This document shows positions 8,167 through 48,897 of a stretch of DNA of 64,000 nt, one piece after another. Below the pieces are notes generated by a model. The model was not told the origin of the DNA, did no database searches, and saw only the letters and a list, made by a program, of their open reading frames with translations. Within the stretch, counting starts at the first letter, position 1, and every line of letters starts with the position of its first letter. Made by a program: the position numbers and the translations under genes. Where the stretch lies: positions 145,984 through 209,983 of the forward strand of contig CAIWCD010000048.1 in the NCBI GenBank assembly GCA_903911145.1, read 5' to 3'. The stretch comes from an uncultured delta proteobacterium (GTDB taxonomy: Bacteria > Myxococcota > Myxococcia > Myxococcales > 40CM-4-68-19).

Positions 8167-8721
8167 CTACTTCTTGCTCGACTTGACCGTCTTCGCGTCA
8201 GATCCCGCAGCCGCGAACTTGTCGTTGTAGCGGCGAACGACCTCGTTGGTGACGTCGGCCGAGTTGGGCGCGTAGAGCAGCGCCTGCTTGTCGAGGACGA
8301 ACGCCAGCCCTTCGCGCTCGCTCACCTCGGCGATGACCTGCAGCATCCGCTGCGAGATCGAATCCATCGCCGCCTTCTCCTTCTTGCTGATGCTCTCCTG
8401 AAGCTCCTGCGCGCTCTGCTGCGTCTCGAGATACGCCTTCTTCAGCTCCTCCTGCTTCTTGTGCTTGGCGTCCTCGGAGAGCACCGAGACCTGCTTCTGG
8501 TAATCAGCGTCCATCTTCTGCAGCGCAGACTGCTTGGCGTCGACCTGCGCGCGGGCCGCATCGACCTCGCCCTGCAGCTTCGACTTCGCCGCCTTGCCCT
8601 CCTCGACCTCCTGAACCGCGCGCTGCACATCGACGTAGCCGATCTTGATCGACTCGGCGCGAGCGGCGTGACCAACGAGAAGAGCGGCAGGAAGAACGAG
8701 AGAGACGAGGAGGCGGCGCAT
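8167..8721 (-). CDS. skp: OmpH/Skp-family periplasmic chaperone
   Basis: Skp holds unfolded outer-membrane proteins in the periplasm and passes them to BamA. The 184-aa product has a signal peptide (MRRLLVSLVLPAALLVGHAARA), then KIGYVDVQRAVQEVEEGKA, and a long Lys/Glu/Gln-rich coiled coil (about 45-130) as in the family. It heads the lpxD-fabZ-lpxA-lpxI-lpxB run. In related genomes bamA lies directly upstream; here a plus-strand block of about 6 kb lies between them. Confidence 0.9.
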   Translation of the reverse strand: MRRLLVSLVLPAALLVGHAARAESIKIGYVDVQRAVQEVEEGKAAKSKLQGEVDAARAQVDAKQSALQKMDADYQKQVSVLSEDAKHKKQEELKKAYLETQQSAQELQESISKKEKAAMDSISQRMLQVIAEVSEREGLAFVLDKQALLYAPNSADVTNEVVRRYNDKFAAAGSDAKTVKSSKK

Positions 8722-8850
8722 GGGGATCTCGCTGATGGGATGAAAAGGCGGCGCAAGCTAGGCGGCCTTGGCGGTGGCGTCAATTGGACTTTGAACGCGG
8801 AGCTCCGCTTGATTCTGGTGAATTGAGTTCGCGCAACATAGGGTGCGGAC

Positions 8851-9768
8851 ATGCGACAGCTTTCCATCGCGGCCCTCGTCTCTGTTGCTGCCTGTGCGAT
8901 CACGCCGCCGCGCACCCTCCCTCAAGCAGCGTGGACCCGGGGGTCGCTGATCTATGTGGTGATCGCCGACGCAAACGACAACGAGGCCAACAAGGTCGGC
9001 ATCAAGTCCGACATCGAGGAGGATCTGCAGGCGGCCGGATTCCGCGTCGAGGTGGGGCCGAAGAGCGCGGGAGAGCTGAAGCTGCAGATCAACATCGAGG
9101 GAGGCTTCTCAACGACAACTGTCCTGCTCGAGCAGGACGGCCAGCAACTCGACCGCTTCACGTTTGATTGGCTGGGGCTTCCCTGCAACTCAATCACCAG
9201 CCCCTCAGCAAGTATGCACTGCGTCGCGCGTGAGATCGTCGCGCGAATCGTTGAATCGAAGGCGGTCGCATCCCGCGTCGTCGACTCAACCGAGCCCGCT
9301 GCGGCTCCCGTGAAGGCCAGGCCGCCCCCAGCTACACCAGTCGTTGCGCACGCCGCAGCGGCGCTCTCCGGCAAGCTGGCCGTGCTCGAGTTGCGCAATT
9401 TCGCGAAGGACCTCACGCACGAGAACGCGCAGTACTTCACTGACATGCTGCGCAGCGCGGCGCTCAAGGCGCAGCCGCAGCTCGAGGTGATGACGCGCGA
9501 GAATCTCGTGGTGCTGCTGCAGGCGAGCGGCAAGCGGCTCGAGGAGTGCGAGGGCGAGTGTGAAGTCGAGACCGGTCGGCGCATCGGGGCCGATCTGATC
9601 ATCAGTGGGGAGCTGCAGAAACTCGGCTCGCTCTACAAGCTCTCGCTGCGGCTGCACGACACGCATGAAGGTCGGCTTCTGGCGTCGACGCAGGCGAGCG
9701 GGAAGACAATTGAAGAGCTCGACGAGAGCGCACAGAGCGCGTCCGAAAAGCTGGTCGCGCAGCGCTAG
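8851..9768 (+). CDS. Lipoprotein with FlgO/CsgG/LpoB-like domain
   Basis: The 305-aa product has a lipoprotein signal (lipobox VAAC, residues 12-15). An N-terminal beta-rich region follows, then an Ala/Pro linker (about 147-172) and a C-terminal alpha/beta domain (about 178-300). That domain carries LAVLELRNF, TDMLRSAAL, VMTRENLVVLL and ADLIISGELQKLGS, the pattern seen in FlgO/CsgG/LpoB-type TolB-N-fold domains. Proteins of this kind are usually periplasm-facing lipoproteins. The exact role is unknown. The stop codon TAG lies within a CTAG shared with the decayed bamA 3' end that begins at 9765, suggesting this gene was once the convergent neighbour of bamA. Confidence 0.75.
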   Translation: MRQLSIAALVSVAACAITPPRTLPQAAWTRGSLIYVVIADANDNEANKVGIKSDIEEDLQAAGFRVEVGPKSAGELKLQINIEGGFSTTTVLLEQDGQQLDRFTFDWLGLPCNSITSPSASMHCVAREIVARIVESKAVASRVVDSTEPAAAPVKARPPPATPVVAHAAAALSGKLAVLELRNFAKDLTHENAQYFTDMLRSAALKAQPQLEVMTRENLVVLLQASGKRLEECEGECEVETGRRIGADLIISGELQKLGSLYKLSLRLHDTHEGRLLASTQASGKTIEELDESAQSASEKLVAQR

Positions 9769-9880
9769 AAGAAATTCCCGATCGTAAATCCGAACTGGTA
9801 CGCGTCGTCCTGAGCGCGCCGCCACTCGAGGTGTTGTGCTGGAAGAAGTGTTCGTTCTCTCCGTAGACGTTACCCGCGTC
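9765..9880 (-). pseudogene. Decayed copy of the bamA 3' end
   Basis: Two blocks match the intact bamA tail on the same strand. 9765-9812 matches 14887-14934 with 2 differences in 48, and 9813-9880 matches 15035-15102 with 2 differences in 68. The 100 nt between them in intact bamA are missing. In protein terms the copy still reads DAGNVYGENEHFFQHNTSSGGAL. Beyond 9880 the similarity fades. The remnant has no start, barrel or POTRA region and cannot be functional. Confidence 0.85.
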
Positions 9881-10085
9881 ACCGAAAGCGAGCCGCGTGG
9901 CGATCGTCGACCGCGACACGCGACGCCGGCAATTGGCTTGCTCCGCCGCAACTCGCAACGCTGGGCCGAGCAGCCTCGCATCAAGCTTGTCGAGTCGATT
10001 GGACGGCGCCGCCGTGATCGGGCATGAAGCGCGCTTGTCGATCGGAAACGACGACGCGGTACAGAGTCGCTGCACAGGGGAACTC
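9769..10085. other. 317-nt stretch without an intact gene
   Basis: The first 112 nt are the bamA remnant. The remainder (9881-10085) holds no conserved reading frame that I recognise. It separates the lipoprotein gene from the protease gene and presumably carries the promoter of the protease cassette. No clear -35/-10 pair or hairpin stands out. Confidence 0.6.
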
Positions 10086-12806
10086 ATGTCCGTTCAATTG
10101 CGTTGCTGCGCCACGCTGGCGTTCGTGGCCGTCGCGCTTTTCTTCGGCGGTACGGCGCCTGCGCTGGCCGAAGCGCCGACGCCGCCGGAGATCCAGGCGC
10201 TGCTCGATAAAGTGCACGCAGGAAGCGCGCTCACGCCGGGAGAGCAAGCGACGCTGCGCGCATGGTCGACATCACACCTGCTGCAGTCGGACCCGAACTA
10301 TCGCCCGGGCGCGCCGCCGAGCGACGATGCGCAGGCCACTGGCATCCCCGACGACATCCGCCAGATCATCGTGCGCGCGGAGCAGGGCGAGCAGACCTCG
10401 GCCGCGGAGCAGACGCGCCTCAAGAGCTGGGCAGCGGCATTGAATGCGCACAAGGCCGACAATCTGCAATGGATCCTGCGCGTCGGTTCGATCCTGCGCG
10501 GCACAGTGCCAGACCCAGGTGCAGCTGCGCACGCGCCGTCGGGCCCGGCAGACAAGCGCGTCCTCGGCGAGGTACGCCTCGACGTCACCCAGCACCGCAA
10601 AGGCATCGTCCGCGACGGCAGCGGCGAGATGAACATCTCGGGAAAGATCACGATCCCGTGCGTCTTCCTCGTCGCCGAGAACCGCCCGTCGACGCAGCCG
10701 GGCGCGCATGCGTTGTCGATCCGCTTCGAGATCGATCACGACCGCATGCCGACCGGCCAGCTTGTCTCCCACGTGTCCTCGACGAGCCGGGAGCGCAGCG
10801 AAGATGCGACCACGACCACGATGATCCAGCGCGGCGCCGGACTCGCCGACAACATCTTCGGCGGCGAGCTGTTCTTCGATCCCGCCCTTCCGCGGCCATA
10901 CATACGCACGCTGCAGAACCTGTCTGGCCAATCGTCGGCAGTGGCGACAACGACGACTCACACAGACAAGGGAGATCGGCACGACACGACGCATGGAACG
11001 TCGCGCGCTGCAGCCGCCCTGCTCGACCCATCGCTCGATGCGATGCGTATGGACCTGCCGTGGGCGACAGGAACGTTCGCGACGAATGATGCTCCGGCGG
11101 CGGTCGCCGGATCGCGCTGGGGCACGACTGGCGCGATGAGGCAGTTGCCGCCCGCCATCCGCGCCGCTGTCGAAGGCACCAGCTTCAGCATCGACGCCGC
11201 CGCCATCCGCGACCATCTGCGCGCCGGCCGCAACTTCGAGGTATCGGGCACGATTAAATACCAGCTCGATCTGGACGTCGGCGGCACGCACAATGTCGAT
11301 GAATCGACCGTGACGTTCACCTTCGCGATCGCGCCGCCGCCCGGGAACCTCTACATCGCCCCCGTTGACGAGGAGAAGTGGAAGTCGTGGATCCCCGATA
11401 GGCCCTGGCTGACCGACGCCGACGACGCGAAGATCTTCGGTCTTCAACCAAAGAGTCTCGATGGCGCCCTCGAACTGTTCGTCTCGTATCCAGGCGATGC
11501 GACGAAGTGCAAGCTGCAGATCGATCTCGCCGACGTGAAGGACCTCGCGGGCCTTTCGTCGAACTATCCGGTGCACGCCGCGCAGAAGAAGAGCCTGCGC
11601 ATCGCGCCAGACCAGACCGGTCTCGATGTGCTCGACGAGGGGCAGCGCGCAGTCACGCACGATCGGGTCTCGACGATTGCATTCAAAGTCGTCCCCACGA
11701 CGCCCGGCGGCTGGGGCAAGGTCACCGCAAAGTGCACGGAGGACGGCACCGAGGCGCGCCGGAAAGCGAACGATCGCACCAGCGTCGAGCTGCCGCGCGA
11801 CGACGACAACAACCACATCGCCGACGCATACCAGGACGCGCACGACGGGTTTGCGGGTGACGCGAACGGCGACGACGACGCGCAGCCGACCGGCCAGGCC
11901 TCCGACGGCGACGGCCTCAGCCGCTACGAAGAGTATCGGGGCTTCATCGTGCGCAAGTTCACGTCGGGCGCGGAGAAGAAGTGGGTACAGACGGACCCGA
12001 AGACGAAAGATCTGTTCGTCTTCGACCCCGACTTTCTCGTCAAGGAGCACTACGAGACGCACGGCAACCCGATCGGCGCAACGCTCCATTACGTCGATAA
12101 AACGATGATGAACTGGTCGGCGAGCTACGACACCAACTGGGACCGTCCCGGCGACGCCGACCACCGCTGGCTCAACACCAACACACCGGCCGATCTGATG
12201 GCGCACCGGCAATACGTGATCGTGGTTGTCGAGGACGAGACGATGCCCAACGGATGGGCCGGCGTCACCTATCCCGACGACGACGAGATCGCAGCGAACC
12301 ACGCGCTCTACCCTCTCTGCGTGAAGCACGCGATGAAGTGCCGCAACAGCGCTCATATCTCCATCGTCAAGCAGCGTGCGACGCTGCACCGCTGGGTCGA
12401 GCACTTCATGAACGCGGTGGAGCACAGCAACGAGAACATTTACTTAATCGCCAAGCAGCGGCTCACGCCCGCGGTGGTCGACGCATGGATCGAGTCGGAG
12501 ATCGACGCGACGGTGATTCATGAGATCGGGCATACCGTCGGCGCCGAGCACCACGGGCCGCAGAGCCACCTCGGCGCGCACGGCTGTGCCATGCGATATC
12601 CGCAAGGGCAGGAGGATATTCTCGAGATGCTGTTGCATACGGCGCCGTTGCGCGTGGGCTATTGCCACGATGGCGACGAGGGCAACGTCGCCGACGCGAC
12701 CTGGCCCAACCCCGCACCCTCCGCCTTCTTCTTCTCGCCGACGCCGACCGTCGGGCCGTCGCACGACGACTGCTGGCACCACATCAACATCAACTCGGAG
12801 CGCTGA
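10086..12806 (+). CDS. Secreted metzincin-like zinc metalloprotease
   Basis: The 906-aa product has a signal peptide (about residues 1-31, ending APALAEA). Near the C-terminus lies HEIGHTVGAEHHG (from residue 812), the HExxHxxGxxH zinc site of metzincins, with a candidate Met-turn shortly after (GCAMRYP). Acidic Ca-binding-like loops resembling EF-hand or thrombospondin type-3 repeats occur near 570-615 (DDDNNHIADAYQDA and DGDGLSRYEEY). The large N-terminal region is not recognised. The ATG at 10086 is the start that begins the signal peptide. It is probably co-transcribed with the next gene (2-nt gap) and perhaps with the OmpA gene 46 nt further on. Confidence 0.8.
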   Translation: MSVQLRCCATLAFVAVALFFGGTAPALAEAPTPPEIQALLDKVHAGSALTPGEQATLRAWSTSHLLQSDPNYRPGAPPSDDAQATGIPDDIRQIIVRAEQGEQTSAAEQTRLKSWAAALNAHKADNLQWILRVGSILRGTVPDPGAAAHAPSGPADKRVLGEVRLDVTQHRKGIVRDGSGEMNISGKITIPCVFLVAENRPSTQPGAHALSIRFEIDHDRMPTGQLVSHVSSTSRERSEDATTTTMIQRGAGLADNIFGGELFFDPALPRPYIRTLQNLSGQSSAVATTTTHTDKGDRHDTTHGTSRAAAALLDPSLDAMRMDLPWATGTFATNDAPAAVAGSRWGTTGAMRQLPPAIRAAVEGTSFSIDAAAIRDHLRAGRNFEVSGTIKYQLDLDVGGTHNVDESTVTFTFAIAPPPGNLYIAPVDEEKWKSWIPDRPWLTDADDAKIFGLQPKSLDGALELFVSYPGDATKCKLQIDLADVKDLAGLSSNYPVHAAQKKSLRIAPDQTGLDVLDEGQRAVTHDRVSTIAFKVVPTTPGGWGKVTAKCTEDGTEARRKANDRTSVELPRDDDNNHIADAYQDAHDGFAGDANGDDDAQPTGQASDGDGLSRYEEYRGFIVRKFTSGAEKKWVQTDPKTKDLFVFDPDFLVKEHYETHGNPIGATLHYVDKTMMNWSASYDTNWDRPGDADHRWLNTNTPADLMAHRQYVIVVVEDETMPNGWAGVTYPDDDEIAANHALYPLCVKHAMKCRNSAHISIVKQRATLHRWVEHFMNAVEHSNENIYLIAKQRLTPAVVDAWIESEIDATVIHEIGHTVGAEHHGPQSHLGAHGCAMRYPQGQEDILEMLLHTAPLRVGYCHDGDEGNVADATWPNPAPSAFFFSPTPTVGPSHDDCWHHININSER

Positions 12807-12808
12807 CG

Positions 12809-13522
12809 ATGCGAACGCAACCGACCTTGCTTGCCGCCACCTTCATCGCTGCGATGGCCTTGACGACCGTCGCCTCGGCCCACCTCGTCACGCCGCTCGA
12901 CGAAAAAGAGGGCAAGCGCTTCGACGAGGCCGCTGGTATCGCCTCGCGCGCGGGCTACGCCGATGCGGCCGTCTTCTGGCACGGCGCCGGGGAGTGGGAT
13001 TCGCTCTTTCTCCTCGAAGGCACGCACGGCAAGGACCTGCGCGGGCAGTTGCTGGTGATCGCGCCGGCCGGCAGCACGAGCACAGGCATCGTCGATCTGC
13101 AGGCAACCGAGCGCGTCAATCGCCTCGACGTGATCGTCACGCGCCTCTTCGATAAGCCCGAGGTTCTCGATGTGGCGATCACCGGCAGTCCATTCCAACT
13201 CGAGACGTCGACGATGCGCACGATCCATTACGTCGTCAGCACCGGGGAGAAGCCGTCGCTGCGCGGCACCGTCTGGGGCTCCATCGCCTCGTCGACGGCC
13301 AAGGGGGACAAGTCGTGGGAGTCGAAGCGCGTGGTGACGCTCGTCGCCGATCACGCGGCGAAGACGCCTACGATTGTCGTCACCACGAAGGAGGAGACGA
13401 TCGAGCGTCCGATCCCCGGCATCGGCGGCGCGGATCGCAAGGAGACTCGCAACGCCACGCCACCGGCGACGAAGCGCTTCGAGCTCTCCGGCGCCAGCGG
13501 GCCGATGGTGGAGCTCAAGTAG
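12809..13522 (+). CDS. Secreted protein of unknown function in the protease cassette
   Basis: The 237-aa product has a clear signal peptide (MRTQPTLLAATFIAAMALTT then SAH) and a mostly beta-strand-like exported domain with no cysteines and no catalytic motif that I recognise. The ATG lies 2 nt after the protease stop, so the two are almost certainly translated from one message. It could be a partner, inhibitor or substrate-binding accessory of the protease, but this rests on gene position only. Confidence 0.75.
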   Translation: MRTQPTLLAATFIAAMALTTVASAHLVTPLDEKEGKRFDEAAGIASRAGYADAAVFWHGAGEWDSLFLLEGTHGKDLRGQLLVIAPAGSTSTGIVDLQATERVNRLDVIVTRLFDKPEVLDVAITGSPFQLETSTMRTIHYVVSTGEKPSLRGTVWGSIASSTAKGDKSWESKRVVTLVADHAAKTPTIVVTTKEETIERPIPGIGGADRKETRNATPPATKRFELSGASGPMVELK

Positions 13523-13568
13523 CTGGCTTTCTCGTTCTTCGATTCGAACAGCGCGAACGGAACTCCGC

Positions 13569-14714
13569 ATGACCATGCGCATCGCACTCCTCCTCGTCGT
13601 AACCTCCGGCGCCGCACTCGCGCACGATCTGCCCGACGACGTACCGCCGCCCCCTGGATGTGTCGCGCCCCGCATCGAGGCCCACGACTACGACTTCTCC
13701 GAGGTGCGCGGACCGGCCACAGGAGCAGGCACTGCCAATCTCAAGGTCTTCGGCCACAAGCTCTCCGGCCAATGGCAATGCCCGGGAAAGATCCCGTTTG
13801 TCGCGTGGGCCGAGCTGCTGCGCGCCAAGGGCTGGGACGTCCTCGGCGTGAATGACCAGAGCCTCTACGCGCATATCGGCGACGCGCGATATCTCAAGAG
13901 CACGCAGGGCTTCGAGCTGATCGAGCGGGCCGAGCCGCGGGCGCTTTCGCTGCCATCTCCGGCCGAGAAGCCGGAGCCGCTGACGGCAGACGCGGAGCCG
14001 CCCTATGCCACGATGCTCTCCGGCCTGGCGTTGGTGAAGCGCGAGATGGTCGCCAAGGGCTCCGCCGAGATCACCAATGCCCGCACGGGAAATGCATTTC
14101 TGCATCCGCCCTTTCTGCGGCTCACCTATCGGATTCCCCACGGCTCGACCGATACGCTCTCCGGCACCGAGGTCGAGGCGGCTTATGAGCAGGCGCTCGC
14201 GAAGGCGGGCTGGGAGATCCTGCATCGCTCCGACGGCGGGACGCTGATCGCCCATTACACCAAGCTCGGCCGCGATGTCTGGCTCAAGGTCACGCCTGGC
14301 CCGGAGAGCTCTGTGGAGATCGGGGATGTCGGCGCGCAGGAGGCGCAAGCAAAACTCGCAGCGGAGCTCGAGCGCGTTGGACACGTCGCAATCTATGGCC
14401 TCTATTTCGATACCGGATCACCGACGCTCAAGCCGGAATCGACGGGCACGCTGGAGCGTATTCTCGCTCTGCTCACGGCAGCCCCGGCGCTGCACGTCGA
14501 GGTGCAGGGGCATACCGACAACTCGGGGCATAATCCGGGCAACCAGCTGCTCTCGGAGGCGCGCGCAAAGACCGTGCGGGACTGGCTGGTCGCGCACGGC
14601 ATTGCGGGCGAGCGGCTTACCGCCAGGGGATATGCCGACACGCAGCCGGTCGCGGACAACCAGACGCCAGAGGGCCGCGCGCTCAATCGGCGAGTAGAGC
14701 TGGCGAAGCGCTAG
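13569..14714 (+). CDS. OmpA-domain envelope protein
   Basis: The 381-aa product starts with a signal peptide (MTMRIALLLVVTSGAALA). An unrecognised region (about residues 20-270) is followed by an OmpA-like peptidoglycan-binding domain. That domain has YFDTGSPTLKPES, VEVQGHTDNSG, LSEARAKTVRDWL and RGYADTQPVADN, ending NRRVELAKR. The domain binds diaminopimelate in murein and would tether the protein to the cell wall. A second ATG at 13575 is an alternative start. It closes the protease cassette and converges on bamA. Confidence 0.88.
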   Translation: MTMRIALLLVVTSGAALAHDLPDDVPPPPGCVAPRIEAHDYDFSEVRGPATGAGTANLKVFGHKLSGQWQCPGKIPFVAWAELLRAKGWDVLGVNDQSLYAHIGDARYLKSTQGFELIERAEPRALSLPSPAEKPEPLTADAEPPYATMLSGLALVKREMVAKGSAEITNARTGNAFLHPPFLRLTYRIPHGSTDTLSGTEVEAAYEQALAKAGWEILHRSDGGTLIAHYTKLGRDVWLKVTPGPESSVEIGDVGAQEAQAKLAAELERVGHVAIYGLYFDTGSPTLKPESTGTLERILALLTAAPALHVEVQGHTDNSGHNPGNQLLSEARAKTVRDWLVAHGIAGERLTARGYADTQPVADNQTPEGRALNRRVELAKR

Positions 14715-14769
14715 ACGCAGGTGAACCGAGCTGACGAAGACCTCGCCATCGGACCGAGGACCGCCTCCT

Positions 14770-14873
14770 GACCGAGCTCTCACCGCGGAGGCGCGAGCTC
14801 AGCGGTCGGCACGGCGGCGTCAAGGAGGACGGCCGGCTGATACAGAGGAGAACAGCTTCGTCTCTCTGCGTCC
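14770..14873. terminator. Hairpins between convergent OmpA-domain gene and bamA
   Basis: Two inverted repeats lie in the 172-nt gap. GACCGAGCTC (14770-14779) can pair with GAGCT plus CGGTC (14795-14807, with a three-base bulge). GGACG (14827-14831) pairs with CGTCC (14869-14873), enclosing a near-complementary CAGAGGAGA / TCTCTCTG pair. No T-run follows, so these are only candidate bidirectional terminators. Confidence 0.35.
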
Positions 14874-14886
14874 GGCCCGCCGCCAG

Positions 14887-17406
14887 CTAGAAGAAATTGC
14901 CGATCGTAAATTCGAACTGGTACGCGTCGTCCTGCGCACGCCGCGTGAGCGGGAAACCGAGCTCGAAGCGCAACGGCCCCAGAGGAGAGAACCAGCGCAC
15001 GCCCGCGCCGACGCTGTGGAACAGACCGAGAGGCAGCGCGCCGCCACTCGAGGTGTTGTGCTGGAAGAAGTGCTCGTTCTCTCCGTAGACGTTGCCCGCG
15101 TCGTAGAACGCGACGCCGCGCACGCCGGCGGCTTCGACGAGCGGGAACTCGAGCTCCCAGTTGGAGATGATCTCCTTGTTGCCGCCGACCGCGAAGTCGA
15201 CGACGCCCGCGCTGGGCGTGAGCGAATTGGCGATGCGCACGGTCGGCGCGATTGAGTAGAGGTTGTAGCCGCGCAGCGAGTTGATGCCGCCCTCGAAGAA
15301 CTTCTCGCTGATGGCGAGCGGCGCGTTCACGGGATCGGTGGTGCGGATGTAGCCGAAGTTGACGTTGAACTTGAAGACCACTCCGCCGCCGAGCGGGAAG
15401 TAGCGGCGCTCGATCGCGCGGAAGCGCTGGAAGAGATTCTGGCTGCCGAGGAATGCGGGCGCGAACTCCGCGGAGCCGGACTCGAGGTGTCCCTCGGTGG
15501 GGAAGAGCCGGTTGTCGCGGCGGTCGTAGTTGAAGCTGAAGCGGACGCTCGACGTGCGGCCCGAGAGGAACTGGTTCTGCAAGAGCTGCGAGCTCGTCGT
15601 GGTCGCCTGCACGTCGAGCTGCTCGAGCGTGTAGGTCATGAAGAAGTGGAAATCCTCGAGCCAGTGCGAGACGTGCGTGAAGTTGGTGAAGTCGTAGCCC
15701 GCCGTCAGCGCGCCGCCGATCGTGTCGCGCTGGAAGCCCGTGTAGATGAGCTGCGAGCGGTAGAGATCGACTGAGCCGGTCCAGAAGGTGTCGAAGAGGT
15801 ACGGGTCGAGATAGCTCAACTGCACGAGCTGGCGGATGCTCGAGAGCTGCAACGAGAGGCTGCCGGTGGTGCCATAGCCGAGCAGGTTGTTCTGCGAGAC
15901 CTGCGCGGTGCCGAAGAATGATTCGCCGCCGGTGAAGCCAAAGCCAACCTGGAACGTACCGGTCAGCTTCTCCTTGATCGCCACCTCGAGGATCATCTTG
16001 TCCTCGCTCGAGCCGCGGCGCTGGTTGATTTCGACGGTCTCGAAGAAGCCGAGCGCGTTCACGCGCTGCTTGGAGATGCGGATCTTGGTGGAGCTGAAGA
16101 GCTCGCCCTCGTCGATGCGCATCTCGCGCCGCACGACCTTGTCGCGCGTCTTGCTGTTGCCGACCACCTCGATGCGCTCGATGGTGACGACGTTGCCCTT
16201 CTGCATCTCGTAGGTCAGATCGACCGTCTTCTTCTCTGCGTCGACGGCGGTGAGCGGAGAGACGTTCGCGTAGGCGTAGCCCTTGTCCTTGTAGACATCG
16301 CTGAGCGCCTGCATGTCCTTTCCGATCTGTCCGCGATTGAAGCGGTCGCCGGCCTTGAGGACAATCTTCGAGAGGAGCAGGTCGCGCGTGTCGAGCATGT
16401 CGCCGCTGACGTCAATCTTGCCGACGTTGTAGGGCTCACCCTCTTCGATCGTGAAGGTGATGAAGATGTAGCGCTTGTCGGGCGAGAGCTCGATCGCGGG
16501 CTTGCCGAACTTCACGTAGAGGAAGCCGCGGTCGTAGTACATCGACTGCAGGATGTAATCGTCGCGCTGGAACGCGTCTTCGCGGTACGTGCCCGCGCCG
16601 CTGAAGAACGAGAAGAGCCCGCCCTCCTGCGTGATCATCTGCGCCTTGAGTTCAGCGGACGGGATCGACCTGTTTCCGACGAAGCGGATCTCGCGGACCA
16701 TCACCTTCGCGTGCTCGTTGATGACGAAGACGACCTCGACCTCGTTGTTCGGCTTCTGGTCGATGCGGCTCGAGACCTCGGCGAGGAAGAAGCCCTTCTC
16801 GATGTACTTGTCCTGGATCTTCTTCACCGAGCGGCGCACCGCCTCCTGATCGAGGATCTGGTACTGGCGCACTTCGATGTTGTTGTCCTTGTTCAGATCC
16901 TCAGCGGAGATCTCGTCGTTGCCCTCGAAGCGGACGAGATGCACCGCCGGTTTCTCGCTGACGATGACGGTGACCACATTGCCGACCTGAGGCACGGGCA
17001 GAGGCGAGACGTCGATGCGGACGTCGTTGAAGTAGCTCATCCGCCAGATTGCGATCACGGCCGACTTGATCTTCGCCTTGTCGTAGGTGTCGCCGGCCTT
17101 GAGCGGCAGCGCGTTGCGCACAGCGTCTGTCTCGACGCGGCGGTTGCCCTGCACAGCGACGCGCGCGATCTCGCCCTCGTCGGGAGCGGGGAGTCCCATC
17201 GCAGAGGCTGCCTCGCCATCGACCTCTGCGGAGGCGCGCGGACCTGCATCGGTGGCCTCGCTTGCAGCAGGCGAGGGAGCAGAAGCAGCAGCCGAAGAGC
17301 CCGCGTCAGCAAACGCAACCGCTCCGTCGTCCGCTCGGCTTGAGTGGAGGGGGAGCGCTGCGGCCGCCAGGAGGGCCCAGATTGCGAGGAGAACGGCGGG
17401 TCGCAT
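14887..17406 (-). CDS. bamA: Outer-membrane barrel assembly factor BamA
   Basis: BamA inserts beta-barrel proteins into the outer membrane. The 839-aa product has a signal peptide (about 1-25), an Ala/Ser/Glu-rich spacer, POTRA domains (about 80-475, starting IARVAVQGNRRVETDAV) and a C-terminal 16-strand barrel. The barrel carries the conserved INSLRGYN loop and ends in the aromatic signature FEFTIGNFF. It converges on the protease/OmpA cassette and is divergent from the methylase gene. In related genomes it is followed directly by skp; here a block of about 6 kb intervenes, with a decayed copy of its own tail at 9765-9880. Confidence 0.97.
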   Translation of the reverse strand: MRPAVLLAIWALLAAAALPLHSSRADDGAVAFADAGSSAAASAPSPAASEATDAGPRASAEVDGEAASAMGLPAPDEGEIARVAVQGNRRVETDAVRNALPLKAGDTYDKAKIKSAVIAIWRMSYFNDVRIDVSPLPVPQVGNVVTVIVSEKPAVHLVRFEGNDEISAEDLNKDNNIEVRQYQILDQEAVRRSVKKIQDKYIEKGFFLAEVSSRIDQKPNNEVEVVFVINEHAKVMVREIRFVGNRSIPSAELKAQMITQEGGLFSFFSGAGTYREDAFQRDDYILQSMYYDRGFLYVKFGKPAIELSPDKRYIFITFTIEEGEPYNVGKIDVSGDMLDTRDLLLSKIVLKAGDRFNRGQIGKDMQALSDVYKDKGYAYANVSPLTAVDAEKKTVDLTYEMQKGNVVTIERIEVVGNSKTRDKVVRREMRIDEGELFSSTKIRISKQRVNALGFFETVEINQRRGSSEDKMILEVAIKEKLTGTFQVGFGFTGGESFFGTAQVSQNNLLGYGTTGSLSLQLSSIRQLVQLSYLDPYLFDTFWTGSVDLYRSQLIYTGFQRDTIGGALTAGYDFTNFTHVSHWLEDFHFFMTYTLEQLDVQATTTSSQLLQNQFLSGRTSSVRFSFNYDRRDNRLFPTEGHLESGSAEFAPAFLGSQNLFQRFRAIERRYFPLGGGVVFKFNVNFGYIRTTDPVNAPLAISEKFFEGGINSLRGYNLYSIAPTVRIANSLTPSAGVVDFAVGGNKEIISNWELEFPLVEAAGVRGVAFYDAGNVYGENEHFFQHNTSSGGALPLGLFHSVGAGVRWFSPLGPLRFELGFPLTRRAQDDAYQFEFTIGNFF

Positions 17407-41474: not shown

Positions 41475-44054
41475 TCAGCGCCCGAACGACTGGAGCTGGA
41501 AGCTGAAGCGCACCGACGGCTGGCTCAGCAGCGTTCCGTCGCGAAAGGGAAGATCGACGCCGAGCGAGAGTCCCGCGCAGCCGCAGGGCGGGCTCCACGC
41601 GAACGAGACGGTGTGGACGAGATTGGCGGTTCCGGCAACGAGCGTGCCTGGATGCCAGCTCAAGTCGTAGCCGAGCTTTGAACCTTTCGCGTCGATCGGG
41701 ATTGCCCAGGCCGCGCCTGCAGCGATGGTGCCGTTGAAATCTCCCGGCTCGGCGGCGAGCAGCGTCGCGGCAAACAGCTCGTCGATGCCGGCGCGAATCC
41801 GATCTCCGGCAGCTCCGCGCAAGATCGTCTCGGTCGTGTGCAGGTCATCCCCGCGCGCATCGTGCACAGCCGCCGTCGCCTGCGCGTACGAGACGAGATG
41901 GAGATGCCAGTCCCAGTTGAGCGCGCCACTCATCGAGAAATAGGGCAGCGAGAGCGAGAACGCGCCCGTCGCGTCGGCGAGTCGTGCTGCGCCCGCATGA
42001 TCCCAGAGGACGAAATCCTGCTGCAGCGTGAGCGAAGCAACGCGGGTGGGCGGCGCGTGCGGCGAGGGCTTGCTCCAGAGCGACTGGCGCAGCGCAATCG
42101 ACGTCTCGAACTCGCCCGTCGTGGGAGCGGCGCCATCGATCTCGTCGAGGCCGCGACGCAGCGCGGGCACGCCCAGAGCGGCCGAGCGCATCGCCGCACC
42201 GAGCGGTCGCGCCGTGCCAGGAGGAACTCCCTGCTCCGATTCGAGCGGCATCGCGGCATAGCTGAGCCCTCCCGAATCGGCAGAGTCCCCAATGGGTGGA
42301 CCGCCGCCGAGCAGCGCCGGAGCGATCGCGCGCGCGAAAACCTGCGGCTCGATCGTGTGCAGCAGCGTCCCGAAATTCCTCTCGAGAAGAAGGCTCGCCT
42401 CCGCGCCTGCGAGCGGCTGGAGTCGGCGCACGTTGCGCGCTTCGTCTCCGAGGAAGAACCACGCGTCAGCGCGCGCGCCCGCGTAGACCTTCCCTCGCAG
42501 CGCGAACTCTTCGGGCAGCGCAATAGAGAGCCTCGGAGAGACATCGAGGCGCAGGGTGGGCGGGCGAGAGAGATCGCCGCTGCCCTGCACCACCGCCGGC
42601 GTCGCTCCGAGATCGGTCGGCGAGAAGCCCGTGGCCTTCTGCTCTGCCGACGAGACCGCCGTCGCGACACTCACCGCGCTCGCCTCGGCCGAATACGCAA
42701 TGGGTCCGAACATCGTCGGCAGAAGCTGCAGAAACGGAGACGGCAGACGCGTCGGCGTCGCGCGCGCTTCAGCCCCGAAGAGGCGCCGGTCAGGCTGCGC
42801 GCCACTGGCGACGCGGAGATCCTGCAGGTAGGTCGCGTCGAACCCGAGCGCGAGCGTGCCGAGGTTGGCAAAGAGGCCGAGGTCGCTGCGCAGCGAATCG
42901 AGATAGCGCTCGAGCTGCGTCGGCTCTGTGTCCGCGATGAAGACTGCGTCGCTCGCGAGCTTGCCCTGCGCGACCAGTGTCGCACCGGAGAACTCGCTGC
43001 GTTCGGCGAATCGCAGCGTGCCACGAATCCCCGCAAAGCCGCGCCCAGAGCCATTTGGATGCTCGCCGGCAAACACTGAGGACGGGCTCTGTGCCAGCGA
43101 GTTCGGCGCCGCGAAATCCCCGAGGAGGTCGAGTGCGATCTCGCCGCTCGTGCCTTCGGCGGGAGCGCCGCGCAGTTCGAGCCCGAGCCGCGGCCCGCGC
43201 ACATTGCGGCTCGCGAGGTCCGAGCCGTGATCGCTGCCGAAGCTGCCGGTGAAGAGCCCCGGCGTGATCGTCGCGTCCCAGCTGCGGCCCAGCGTCAGAT
43301 AGATCGGCTGCGCGATGCGAAATCCGGTGGAGCTCGAGTAGCCAAGCTGCGGCGCGAGGAGCCCCGACTGGCGGGTTTCGAGTGGCAACGCCAGAGGAAG
43401 AAACGGGAGCGTCAAGCCAAGAAAACGAATGTGCGGACGAGAGAGATAGGCGCGATCTCCCTCGACGAGCACCTCCGGCGAGTCGATCTCGTAGTCGGGT
43501 CGCCCCACGCAATCGCAGGGCGTGACCGTGGTGTCGCCGAGCAGCGTCCTCCCGTCGTCGAGCTTGATCGCCCGCGCTGCGTGCAGCGTCGCCGCGTTGT
43601 GGCCGAGACCGCGCGCCGCTTTCGGATCGTCGAGCAGGTGCAGTTGCGGGCTCCAGAACTGCTTCACGTAGAGAACCGCATCGTCGAGATCGGTGGCGTG
43701 CGCGACCACATCGATGCGCGCGCTGTTCGCGATCGCCACCTCGGTTCCCTGGACTGCGAGCACCGGGCCGTCGAGGAAGAGCGCCTGCGCCGCATTGACG
43801 AAGCGCGCGCGGGACGCATGCAGAATCCCTTCGCGCCGCTCGACGAGAACGTGGCCCTCGAACGTCCAGTCGCCCGTGCCGCTGTCGTACCAGAGGCGAT
43901 CGGAAGTGACGTCGAACGGAACCGCACCCCCGAGGCCGTCCGCGGCGTGGTGCGCGGGAGCGTCGCTGCTCGGCGCCTCACCTCGCGCGCTGAACGCACA
44001 CGCGAAGAGCGCGATCGCACAGAGGCGCACTCCGAGTCGGCTCGAGCAGATCAC
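41475..44054 (-). CDS. lptD: LPS-assembly outer-membrane protein LptD
   Basis: LptD with LptE inserts LPS into the outer leaflet of the outer membrane. The 859-aa product has a signal peptide (about 1-25), an N-terminal OstA/LptA-like jellyroll (about 45-160, with VTSDRLWYDSGTGDWTFEGHV), and a large barrel ending in the aromatic strand SVRFSFQLQSFG. One Cys pair (CDC near 180) is present, unlike the four-cysteine pattern of E. coli. It lies downstream of an AMIN-domain gene on the same strand. Confidence 0.94.
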   Translation of the reverse strand: MICSSRLGVRLCAIALFACAFSARGEAPSSDAPAHHAADGLGGAVPFDVTSDRLWYDSGTGDWTFEGHVLVERREGILHASRARFVNAAQALFLDGPVLAVQGTEVAIANSARIDVVAHATDLDDAVLYVKQFWSPQLHLLDDPKAARGLGHNAATLHAARAIKLDDGRTLLGDTTVTPCDCVGRPDYEIDSPEVLVEGDRAYLSRPHIRFLGLTLPFLPLALPLETRQSGLLAPQLGYSSSTGFRIAQPIYLTLGRSWDATITPGLFTGSFGSDHGSDLASRNVRGPRLGLELRGAPAEGTSGEIALDLLGDFAAPNSLAQSPSSVFAGEHPNGSGRGFAGIRGTLRFAERSEFSGATLVAQGKLASDAVFIADTEPTQLERYLDSLRSDLGLFANLGTLALGFDATYLQDLRVASGAQPDRRLFGAEARATPTRLPSPFLQLLPTMFGPIAYSAEASAVSVATAVSSAEQKATGFSPTDLGATPAVVQGSGDLSRPPTLRLDVSPRLSIALPEEFALRGKVYAGARADAWFFLGDEARNVRRLQPLAGAEASLLLERNFGTLLHTIEPQVFARAIAPALLGGGPPIGDSADSGGLSYAAMPLESEQGVPPGTARPLGAAMRSAALGVPALRRGLDEIDGAAPTTGEFETSIALRQSLWSKPSPHAPPTRVASLTLQQDFVLWDHAGAARLADATGAFSLSLPYFSMSGALNWDWHLHLVSYAQATAAVHDARGDDLHTTETILRGAAGDRIRAGIDELFAATLLAAEPGDFNGTIAAGAAWAIPIDAKGSKLGYDLSWHPGTLVAGTANLVHTVSFAWSPPCGCAGLSLGVDLPFRDGTLLSQPSVRFSFQLQSFGR

Positions 44055-44102: not shown

Positions 44103-46010
44103 TCATGGACGCCGCACGAAGGTGACGCGGAGGACCCCTTCCTCCTGCTGCAGTCGCGTCGTCGCCGGCGCGCGCAGCTCGATGCGCAACTCGACGCCGT
44201 CCGCGACCATCGAGGGAACAACGCGCTCGACGTCGCCGCCGAAGAAGCTGGTGTCGAGAGGACGGCGGTTGTTGGGAAGCGGAATCGTCGCGCCCGAGAT
44301 GCGCAGCCGCGCGCCGTGCGCATCCTCGTTCACCTCAACCTCGAGCGGGCGATCGCTGCGGATGATGACCGTCCCGCCCGCTGCAGGATGAAACCCGATG
44401 CCCGTGATGTTCGCGAGTGGCTCATGACGATGCCGCGTCGGCGCACGGGAGGCTGCGCGCGGAGTTCCCATCGCCTCGGCATGCGGCTCCGCCTGCGCGA
44501 CCGCGCTGGGAGCGGTCGGGAGCTCCGCTGGAACAACGGGAGCTGCCGGAGCCTGCGCAGCCTTCTCGCGCTCGCGCCGCGAACTCCCCGCGAGAGCAAT
44601 CGTCGGAAGCCCTGCACGTCGCTCCTCTTCGCTCTCGACGTGCTTCGCCGATTCGGCCGCACGCGCCTTCTCTTCCGCAACGCGCGCCAACTCCGCCGCA
44701 CGAGCCTTCTCTTCCGCAACGTGCGCCTGCTCGGCCGCAACGCGAGCCACCTCGGCCGCACGCGCCTTTTCTTCCGCAACGCGCGCCTGCTCGGCTGTAC
44801 GTGCCTTCGCTTCCGCTACGCGAGCCTGCTCGGCTTCACGCGCTTGCTCGTCCGCGACGCGAGCCGCCTCGGCCGCACGCGCCTTCTCTTCCGCAACGCG
44901 CGCCTGCTCGGCTGTACGCGCCTTCGCTTCCGCTACGCGGGCCTGCTCGGCTGTACGCGCCTTCGCTTCCGCTACGCGGGCCTGCTCGGCTGCACGCGCT
45001 TGCTCGGCCGCAACGCGAGCCACCTCGGCCGCACGCGCCTTCTCTTCCGCAACGCGCGCCTGCTCGGCTGTACGTGCCTTCGCTTCCGCACGCGCCTTCT
45101 CGTCCGCAACGCGCGCCTGCTCGGATGCACGCGCTTGCTCGTCCGCGACGCGAGCCTGCTCAGTCGCACGCGCCTGCTCGGCCGCACGCGCTTTCTCTTC
45201 CGCAACGCGAGACTGCTCGGTCGCACGAACCTTCGCTTCCGTAGCCCGGGCCTGTTCGGCTACACGCGCTTGCTCGTCCGCAATACGCGCCTGTTCGATC
45301 GCACGCGCCTTCTCTTCCGCAGCGCGCGCCTTCTCTTCGGCGACGCGAGCTTGCTCGGCTGCACGGGCCTGCTCTTCGGCGACGCGAGCCTGCTCGGCCG
45401 CTTGCCTCGCCGCGGCACCTGCGTCGGGCCGCGGAACAGTGGACGCATCAGCGCGCGCAAGCAGCGTCGGCGTCTGCGCAACCGTTGTCGGTGGCGTTGA
45501 GGCAATGAGCGGCGGGCGCGTCAGATGGGAGCACTCGGCTGCTGCGAGCAACTCCTCGAGCGCACGACGCGGCGGCGGCACGTGCTGCACGCGGACCGCC
45601 AGCAGGCGCCCCTCTCCGCGAACTTCAAAATCGGTCTCGCCCGCAAGCTCGATCACCACGCGCGTCGTGCGCGCGCCTGCTCGCACGGCCCCGATGCGCA
45701 GCACGGTTCCGTCCTGGATGAGCTGCTCCTGGATCGATCCGCCGAGCTCGGTGTCGGCGAAGTCGAGCACCACGCGAGGAGGAGACGAGAGCCGCATTGT
45801 CGTGAAGCTGAGCGGACGATCGGAACCCACATCGATCACCGTCGCGTCGACGTCAGCGCGCGCGTGCAGAGAGAGAAGTTGACCCTGGCGGCCTTTGTCC
45901 TGGGCCGCAACGGCCGACGGACTTGCCGCAAACGGCGCGGCAAGCGCGAGCAACATCGCAGTGAGCGCAAGCCGCCAAGCTCGCGAAGAACGCGGCTTCA
46001 GACTCGTCAT
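44103..46010 (-). CDS. Envelope protein with two AMIN-type domains and a tandem coiled coil
   Basis: The 635-aa product has a signal peptide (about 1-36) and an N-terminal AMIN-type beta-domain (about 45-150). A long Ala/Glu/Arg-rich coiled coil (about 205-460) is built from 12-13-residue units such as ARVAEEKARAAE. A Pro/Ala linker and a second AMIN-like domain follow (about 530-635, with GIGFHPAAGGTVIIRSDRP). AMIN domains target periplasmic proteins to septal peptidoglycan or secretin complexes. No amidase or secretin domain is present. The ATG at 46010 overlaps the upstream hydrolase stop (TGATG). Confidence 0.8.
   Translation of the reverse strand: MTSLKPRSSRAWRLALTAMLLALAAPFAASPSAVAAQDKGRQGQLLSLHARADVDATVIDVGSDRPLSFTTMRLSSPPRVVLDFADTELGGSIQEQLIQDGTVLRIGAVRAGARTTRVVIELAGETDFEVRGEGRLLAVRVQHVPPPRRALEELLAAAECSHLTRPPLIASTPPTTVAQTPTLLARADASTVPRPDAGAAARQAAEQARVAEEQARAAEQARVAEEKARAAEEKARAIEQARIADEQARVAEQARATEAKVRATEQSRVAEEKARAAEQARATEQARVADEQARASEQARVADEKARAEAKARTAEQARVAEEKARAAEVARVAAEQARAAEQARVAEAKARTAEQARVAEAKARTAEQARVAEEKARAAEAARVADEQAREAEQARVAEAKARTAEQARVAEEKARAAEVARVAAEQAHVAEEKARAAELARVAEEKARAAESAKHVESEEERRAGLPTIALAGSSRREREKAAQAPAAPVVPAELPTAPSAVAQAEPHAEAMGTPRAASRAPTRHRHEPLANITGIGFHPAAGGTVIIRSDRPLEVEVNEDAHGARLRISGATIPLPNNRRPLDTSFFGGDVERVVPSMVADGVELRIELRAPATTRLQQEEGVLRVTFVRRP
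44640..45410. repeat. Tandem coding repeats of the coiled coil
   Basis: This block inside the AMIN protein gene is built from imperfect repeats of 36-39 nt encoding ARVAEEKARAAE-like units. A 39-nt unit recurs nearly exactly around 44900-44990. Such repeats expand and contract by slippage, so the coiled-coil length may vary between strains. Confidence 0.85.
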
Positions 46011-47311
46011 CAGAGCGCCGCTCCACCGGCCAACGCCGGCTGCGAGACGGGCATGCGGACCGCGCTGGGCAAGGCCTGGGCGCTCTTCGCGTAGAGAATC
46101 AGCTCGCGGATCGCCTCGCAGCACTGCCGCACATCCGCGCCCATCGTCAGCTCGAGATGGCTGTTCTCGGCGACCGAGCGCCAGAGTTTGTACTCGCTGC
46201 CCGCGGCGCGCGCGACGGACGCGGTGCTGTCGCGCGAGGCGAGCCGATCGAGATCGCCATAGAGGATCGCCAGCGGCACGTCGATGTGCTTGAACCCCTC
46301 GTGATAGTCGAAGCCGTTGCGCAGGCAGCTCATGCGCCCATCGCGGATCCAGCGCGCGAACTCCTCGATCACCCGCCGCGGCTCCTTCTCTCCGCCGCGC
46401 TGCAGGAGCCACTGGATCTCCTCGTGCGCGACCCGCGAGGGATTGACGACCGAGCCCATCCGCTGCGCGAGCAACTGCAGGCGACCAAGGCGTGCGAGAT
46501 TCTTCGGTGTCGCAAGTCGAGCGAGTTTCGCCAGCATGCTGTCCATCGGGATGTGACGAAAGCGATGCCGCTCGGGAGCAGTTCCCGGCGCGGCGAGACG
46601 ATCCGCAGTGGAGGCGAGCAGACGCACGCGGCGCAGCGTCCGGGCAGCGGCGTGTCGCGCGTGATCGGCCTGCGTCGCCGCGACGAAGAGCGCATCGACG
46701 ACCGCGCCGACGACCGGAGGACCGAGATGCGCGAGCAGCCGAAGCGCCGGAAAGCCGCGCCCGAGCTCGCTTGGCGCACCGAGCGTCGCGAGCGCGAGCA
46801 GATCGTCATGCTGCGCGGCGTAACCGTAGCCGAGGATCCCGCCCATCGAATTTCCGATCAGCGAGATGCGCGCACGGCCAGTGCGCTGCTTGACGGCCTG
46901 CACGCCCGCCGGGAGATCGTCGATGAGATAGCTGTCGAGGTCCCACTCCCAATCGAGATCGCGCGGAGGAGAGCGCCCAGCAAGCGCCGCGCGTTCGATC
47001 TGCAGTTCGCGCGAGGAGAGACCGTGCCCGCGCAGTTCGAGGATGTGCACGTCCGCGCCATCGAAGAGCAGGTGCTTGACGAAGTTTCCGCAGGAGAACG
47101 CGTGGCGATTCTGGGACCAGCCCGGCACCAGCAGCAGCGGCTCATTCAAGAGCGGCTGCGCCCACGCCTGCGGCACTGGACGATAGCGCGTGATCTGCAG
47201 CACCCATCCATCCGCGGTGGGCGCGTCGTAGATCTCGCGCACGTACAGCGACTTGACGGGAACGTCGTCAAATGGCGGCGGCGCTGCGCTCAGGGACTCT
47301 CCGCGTCGCAT
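46010..47311 (-). CDS. Alpha/beta hydrolase (PHA-synthase-like architecture)
   Basis: The 433-aa product has a hydrolase fold with the nucleophile elbow GNSMGG, an oxyanion-type LLLVPGWSQNRHAF loop, the acid-type segment LAILYGDLDRLASRDS and a C-terminal His in ENSHLELTMG. A long helical cap region lies between. The overall layout resembles class III poly-3-hydroxybutyrate synthase/lipase-like proteins, but PHA synthases use Cys as nucleophile, so a hydrolase is more likely. The substrate is unknown. It sits upstream of the AMIN gene, with overlapping start and stop. Confidence 0.75.
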   Translation of the reverse strand: MRRGESLSAAPPPFDDVPVKSLYVREIYDAPTADGWVLQITRYRPVPQAWAQPLLNEPLLLVPGWSQNRHAFSCGNFVKHLLFDGADVHILELRGHGLSSRELQIERAALAGRSPPRDLDWEWDLDSYLIDDLPAGVQAVKQRTGRARISLIGNSMGGILGYGYAAQHDDLLALATLGAPSELGRGFPALRLLAHLGPPVVGAVVDALFVAATQADHARHAAARTLRRVRLLASTADRLAAPGTAPERHRFRHIPMDSMLAKLARLATPKNLARLGRLQLLAQRMGSVVNPSRVAHEEIQWLLQRGGEKEPRRVIEEFARWIRDGRMSCLRNGFDYHEGFKHIDVPLAILYGDLDRLASRDSTASVARAAGSEYKLWRSVAENSHLELTMGADVRQCCEAIRELILYAKSAQALPSAVRMPVSQPALAGGAAL

Positions 47312-47418
47312 CGGGCCGAATATCTACAAGCGGGATCGACGGGGGGCAATCTTTCAAGAGCGGGAGATGGGCGTTCGGCGTCGGGCTTTGGGAAAAGCCG
47401 CAGCTCGCACGCATCGGC

Positions 47419-48897
47419 TCACCGCGAGAGTTTTTCGGAGGGCATGGCTTCGCGAGGCCGGTTGGCGAGTGCCGCGAGCAGCTCGCCCACGAGGTAGAGC
47501 GAGCCGCAGGCGATCACTGTCCCGCTCGGCTGAGCGGCGCCCCGCGCGGCTGCGAGCGCATTCACCGATGAGTCGTAGGCGAAGCACGGCAGCGCAGGAG
47601 CAAGCTCGTAGACCTTCGCGGCGATCACCGTCGCAGGGAGCGCGCGCGGCGAATCAGGAGCGCAGAGGTGGATCGCGGCAGCGAGCGGCAAGAGCGGCGC
47701 GAGCGTCTGGGCGAGATCCTTGTCGGCAAGTGCACCGAAGACGAGCTGCAGCGGCTGTCCCGCAAACTCCTCGCGCAGCGTTCGCGCGAGCGCCTGCGCG
47801 CCATGCGGATTGTGCGCGCCATCGAGAAAGACGCTCGGCTGTGTCGCCGCGAGCTGCATCCGGCCCGGCCACTGCGCGGTCAGAAGCCCCTGCTCGACGT
47901 GCTCGGGCGACACGCGCAACCCTCGCCGCGCCGCGAGTTCGAGGAGCGCGCAGGCGAGCGCCGCGTTCTCGCGCTGGTGGTGCCCGCGCAGCGAAAGTCC
48001 GGAGCGAGAATCTCTCGCGAGCCGCTCTTCGTGCGTCGCAGGAATCGTCGCCCGCACGGTCCAGGCGCGGTTCGCGTCGCCATCCCTCGAGATCGTTTGC
48101 ATACCAACGATCTCGGAATTGCTTTGAACACCAAGCATCTCGGGCGCGATCGCGCGCAGCCCGCTCTGGTAACAGAACGGCTTCTCGTCGCGGCTCTCGA
48201 ATCGGTAATCGCGTCCCGGCCGCCACAGCAACGCGCCCGCGCGCGCCGCAGTCTCCTCAAGCACTTCCGCTGCCGCCAGGGCCTGGCCTGCGCTCGCGAC
48301 CGGAATTCCCGGTTTGATGATTCCGGCCTTCTCCGCGGCGATCTGCTCGAGCGTGTCGCCGAGATGCTGCGTGTGCTCGAGCGCAAGCGGCGCGATCGCA
48401 CAGGCGAGCGGCGAGACCACGTTCGTCGCATCAAGCCGCCCGCCGAGGCCGACCTCGATCACCATCACGTCGACCGCTTCCTGCGCGAACACGAGGAAGG
48501 CCATCAGCGTGACGAGTTCGAAGAAGGTCAGCCCATCGCCATCGGTCGCGCCTGCCGGCCCTCCGGAGCAGGCCCACGGCACGCGCGCGAGGATCTCCGC
48601 CAGCAGCGCGGCCGCGCGCTCTTCCGGGATCGGCATGCCTCCGATTCGGATTCGCTCGCAGAAGTGGACGAGATGCGGCGAGGTGTACAGCCCGGTCTTG
48701 AGCCCGGCCGCGCGCAGAGCGGACTCGGTGAACGCGCAGGTCGAGCCCTTCCCGTTCGAGCCCGCGACGTGCAGCACGGGAGCTGCGCGATGCGGCTCGC
48801 CGAGTAACGCCAGCGCATCCTCCATGCGCGCAAGGCCCAGCTTCATCCCGAAGTTGCTGCGCGCGAAGAGGGTCTGCTTGAGCTCTGAAAAATTCAT
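47419..48897 (-). CDS. folC: Folylpolyglutamate synthase / dihydrofolate synthase FolC
   Basis: FolC adds glutamate to folates. The 492-aa product starts MNFSELKQTLFARSNFGMK, with the P-loop VAGSNGKGS (residues 45-52), a YTSPHLVHFCERI segment, VIEVGLGGRLDATNVV and VFLDGAHNPHGA. A stretch of roughly 40 extra residues (GLRAIAPEMLGVQ through MQTISRDGDANRAW) contains two copies of the dispersed palindrome. The ATG at 48897 overlaps the upstream methyltransferase stop (TGATG). accD-methyltransferase-folC is an operon. Confidence 0.94.
   Translation of the reverse strand: MNFSELKQTLFARSNFGMKLGLARMEDALALLGEPHRAAPVLHVAGSNGKGSTCAFTESALRAAGLKTGLYTSPHLVHFCERIRIGGMPIPEERAAALLAEILARVPWACSGGPAGATDGDGLTFFELVTLMAFLVFAQEAVDVMVIEVGLGGRLDATNVVSPLACAIAPLALEHTQHLGDTLEQIAAEKAGIIKPGIPVASAGQALAAAEVLEETAARAGALLWRPGRDYRFESRDEKPFCYQSGLRAIAPEMLGVQSNSEIVGMQTISRDGDANRAWTVRATIPATHEERLARDSRSGLSLRGHHQRENAALACALLELAARRGLRVSPEHVEQGLLTAQWPGRMQLAATQPSVFLDGAHNPHGAQALARTLREEFAGQPLQLVFGALADKDLAQTLAPLLPLAAAIHLCAPDSPRALPATVIAAKVYELAPALPCFAYDSSVNALAAARGAAQPSGTVIACGSLYLVGELLAALANRPREAMPSEKLSR
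48091..48134. repeat. Two dispersed palindromes in folC
   Basis: The first copy is the clearest palindrome in the window: GATCGTTTG, then CATA, then CCAACGATC (48091-48112; core 48096-48107). The second core, TTTGAACACCAA, is at 48123-48134. Both lie in an insertion of the FolC protein and are in frame, read on the minus strand as IVGMQTIS and MLGVQSNS. Confidence 0.75.

Follow-up and report, generated by a model that had tools for sequence, protein, structure and literature searches.

A decayed copy of the bamA 3′ end beside a protease/OmpA cassette: probable scar of an insertion in two steps between bamA and skp

The window analyzed here is a 64,000-nt stretch of a contig from an uncultured delta proteobacterium of the order Myxococcales (assembly GCA_903911145.1, contig CAIWCD010000048.1). 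It carries an intact bamA gene and, on the far side of a three-gene cassette, a second and incomplete bamA 3′ end. The question that this locus raises is how a direct repeat of a gene end came to lie on both sides of lineage-specific DNA. The features discussed below are collected in Table 1.

Table 1 Features of the bamA-skp interval. Positions are those of the window.
Feature	Position	Strand	Remarks
skp/ompH-like periplasmic chaperone gene	8167..8721	-	OmpH family; directly beside bamA in the original arrangement
Putative lipoprotein gene, 305 aa	8851..9768	+	DUF3280/DUF2380-type C-terminal domain (Pfam); lineage-specific addition between skp and bamA
bamA 3′-end remnant, pseudogene fragment	9764..9897	-	codons ~763-794 and 824-839 and the stop codon; internal loss of 100 nt
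Deletion junction GCGCGCCGC	9814..9822	.	parents in bamA: GCACGCCGC 14936-14944, GCGCGCCGC 15036-15044
Cassette gene 1, secreted metalloprotease-like protein	10086..12806	+	large; HEIGHTVGAEHH zinc-site-like motif
Cassette gene 2, 237-aa protein	12809..13522	+	no relative detected
Cassette gene 3, OmpA-domain protein	13569..14714	+	Pfam OmpA
bamA, intact, 839 aa	14887..17406	-	TIGR03303 and Omp85 matches; source or partner of the copy (14887-14934, 15035-15102)

The second bamA 3′ end

The bamA gene of the window encodes POTRA repeats and an Omp85 barrel with an intact C-terminal strand, and is 65-68% identical to its family relatives. The 3′ end of this gene recurs as two blocks, 9765-9812 (two differences in 48 positions against 14887-14934) and 9813-9880 (two in 68 against 15035-15102), which together are identical at 112 of 116 positions and differ at four. 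Local alignment of the repeat with the bamA tail gave a score of 133, whereas 200 shuffles that preserved dinucleotides scored 21 on average and 29 at most. A comparison of 9700-10100 with the whole 5.3 Mb genome returned only the region itself and the bamA tail, and no third copy of the tail was found in that genome. The remnant lies on the strand of bamA (minus), in direct orientation, between the lipoprotein gene and the cassette. Its first bases are exactly the bamA stop codon, which has a CTAG in common with the stop of the lipoprotein gene. On both points, the near-identical but internally deleted copy and the shared stop, the locus is as the sequence-only reading had described it. To the left, the similarity gains a single base (9764 = 14886). 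To the right, it begins to fade at 9881 and continues, much weakened, as far as ~9897, with nine mismatches in the 17 ungapped positions of 9881-9897. Past 9891 the similarity is at the chance level of the shuffle comparison, and the weak stretch may reflect decay or chance.

The 100 nt of bamA at 14935-15034 are without a counterpart in the remnant. In bamA, two near-identical 9-mers, spaced by exactly 100 nt, flank the missing segment, and one of them stands at the deletion junction. Deletion between short near-repeats is the usual signature of slippage. Because 100 is not a multiple of three, the reading frame of the remnant is shifted. The minus-strand frame that runs through it (9602-10087) has no match in Pfam, and searches for an RNA family and for a tRNA at the remnant found neither. 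A functional role for the copy was considered and rejected on the grounds of the frame-shifting loss together with these three negative searches. Judged from its sequence, the remnant is most likely now without function, and the frame 9602-10087 should be annotated as a pseudogene remnant and not as a gene.

The similarity of the remnant to its parent also bears on its age. Against the bamA of G001, which is the nearest relative and the only other genome of the genus in the comparison set, the remnant is identical at 89 of 116 positions. Since it matches the bamA of its own genome far more closely, the event postdates the divergence from G001. Where the two differ, the window's bamA carries the state found in most relatives at three sites; at the fourth (codon 836), bamA has GGC and the remnant the commoner GGG. 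Of these four differences, three are synonymous, as compared to 18% expected at random, a comparison that involves only four sites. At this sample size, the site states and the synonymous bias are compatible with both a displaced old tail and a plain copy.

An assembly artefact, or two strains mixed in the assembly, could conceivably underlie such a repeat, and the assembly does consist of 53 contigs. We regard this as highly improbable, as the copy has diverged and lacks an internal segment, the contig spans 298,823 nt, contamination is stated as 0.24%, and the gene order beyond bamA (a dam-type methylase) and beyond skp (lpxD and fabZ) is that of the relatives. A broad habit of such duplications in the genome was likewise considered and rejected, as ~0.7 Mb of the genome's own sequence yielded only a handful of other close direct repeats. 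Those inspected comprised one island at a tRNA-Arg gene and two short repeats of unassigned type. Elsewhere in the window, 44620-45401 contains an imperfect direct-repeat array of ~780 nt with 72-78% identity.

The bamA-skp site in relatives

In all eight readable family relatives, bamA and skp are direct neighbours, ~40-500 nt apart with no gene between them. These relatives are G002 to G007 and G011, in which both genes are on one contig, and G001, which was read from a contig beginning inside bamA. Neither the lipoprotein gene nor the cassette was found at the site in any of the eight, and the bamA-skp gaps of G001, G004, and G007 contained no bamA-tail remnant above chance. As in the window, skp is followed downstream by lpxD and fabZ, and the dam-type methylase beyond bamA is conserved as well. 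The locus shares its genes and their order around the insertion with the bamA-skp-lpxD-fabZ envelope cluster of Gram-negative bacteria, but differs from it in that ~6 kb of added genes part bamA from skp. Because bamA and skp are adjacent in all eight relatives, the whole interval from ~8850 to 14886 is an addition of the window's lineage. The 500-nt bamA-skp gap of G007 (L070, ~9633-10138) contains palindromic repeats of the type CCCGGGCTTCAGCCCGGG.

These comparisons bear directly on the gene order skp - lipoprotein - bamA, which the sequence-only reading had proposed as ancestral while naming relatives without the lipoprotein gene as an outcome that would speak against it. At this site the gene is missing in all eight, and the order finds no support as the ancestral one. 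It is still the likely state just before the cassette, as judged from the scarless abutment of the lipoprotein gene with the remnant. No genome with the intermediate state, i.e., the lipoprotein gene without the cassette, was found among the relatives.

The lipoprotein gene is a member of a dispersed family. Its C-terminal domain type is strongly expanded both here and in G001, with about 20 matches in either genome, and is rare in most relatives. In G006 and G007, full-length relatives are flanked by thiC on one side and a peptidase S46 gene on the other, and the window's genome has kept a related gene at the same locus (C35:44842-45228, with thiC at 42331-43794 and the S46 gene at 45435-47522). 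The gene at the bamA-skp site is thus itself lineage-specific, probably added before the cassette, and comes from a family that has full-length members next to thiC. Its C-terminus aligns with relatives as far as the last residue, which indicates that two natural gene ends meet at the shared CTAG.

The cassette between the two bamA ends

The metalloprotease-like protein was found in none of the 11 other genomes of the family. Distant relatives (~25-35% identical) have a patchy distribution elsewhere in the phylum, and none was found in phage, plasmid, or viral records or contigs. Comparison with the PDB gave weak matches to snake-venom metalloproteinases at residues 805-837. No Pfam or NCBIfam model covers the protein, which has the HEIGHTVGAEHH motif. 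For the OmpA-domain protein, the one clear relative is 49% identical over 361 aa and belongs to G012, a genome of another family. No G+C shift marks the cassette as foreign, and no recombinase or integrase gene is present among the cassette proteins between the repeats.

An intact gene end at one side and a 3′ fragment as a direct repeat at the other is the layout of tyrosine-recombinase islands in gene 3′ ends, and the same genome has an island of this kind, in its normal form, at a tRNA-Arg gene. By analogy, an element could have integrated site-specifically at the bamA 3′ end, with both tails as attachment sites. The bamA locus differs from such islands in that there is no recombinase gene between the repeats, and the repeat was longer than 200 nt before the deletion, far above the usual length of an attachment core. 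In addition, the protease is in no viral, phage, or plasmid record. Mainly because the recombinase is not present, we consider site-specific integration very unlikely. The tRNA-Arg island itself (G000 contig C13, 57473-70081; L143 and L144) is probably an element that integrated at a tRNA-Arg (CCG) gene, with 60-nt flanking direct repeats that are 98% identical and a phage-type integrase at 68581-70107.

Proposed course of events

Our current hypothesis, which we hold to be probable, is that the interval is a scar left by two successive insertions between bamA and skp, and that the stranded bamA tail later decayed. In the first step, a lipoprotein gene of the dispersed family would have been added between bamA and skp, tail to tail with bamA and with the CTAG in common. 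A copy that has its start exactly at the bamA stop and adjoins the lipoprotein gene exactly at its natural end is most easily accounted for if this junction predates the cassette. In the second step, a segment with the genes for the protease, the 237-aa protein, and the OmpA-domain protein would have recombined into the 3′ part of bamA, bringing its own bamA end, so that bamA would stay intact and the old 3′ end would be stranded beside the lipoprotein gene. Candidate routes would be one homologous crossover paired with an illegitimate join at the opposite side, or the integration of a circle. The third step can be read from the repeat directly, in that the presumed stranded tail lost 100 nt between the 9-nt near-repeats and gathered substitutions. 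The earlier suggestion that the cassette arrived with a duplication of the bamA tail is, in this form, the best reading of a cassette that is placed between two tails and whose protease is absent from family relatives.

The first of these routes resembles homology-facilitated illegitimate recombination, in which, as outlined in PMC3240628, a crossover in common sequence on one side is accompanied by an illegitimate join on the other. A process of the kind outlined there would keep bamA intact, bring in new genes, and strand the old tail. The present case differs from that outline in that neither a donor DNA homologous on one side nor a pre-insertion relative was found, and the route is one that we infer. 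The join at ~9881-9897 is not sharp. The abrupt loss of similarity there, which gives no clean joining point, and the indistinct G+C content of the cassette count against the two-step reading, as does the failure to find a genome with the intermediate state.

Alternatively, the genome's own bamA tail could have been copied beside the lipoprotein gene, by tandem duplication or as templated filler DNA at a break, independently of the arrival of the cassette. The high identity of the copy is consistent with this, the majority states of bamA at three of the four differing sites are those expected if the remnant is a decaying copy, and filler DNA could take the form of two blocks that meet at a short repeat. 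However, a copying event needs a chance start exactly at the bamA stop and, in addition, a chance join exactly at the natural lipoprotein stop, and the excess of synonymous differences, although the numbers are small, also argues against it. We therefore consider internal duplication unlikely. A further idea is that the bamA 3′ end is a recurrent landing place, at which envelope genes of other strains enter by recombination within this conserved end of the gene and swap the bamA tail each time, but we would give it very little credence.

What the locus shows is genome rearrangement of an ordinary sort and not a new genetic system; the scar is a useful example and an aid to annotation, and leaves the general view unchanged. 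As an identifiable scar, it documents how envelope genes were added in one lineage next to a gene that is essential for outer-membrane assembly, while that gene itself stayed unbroken.
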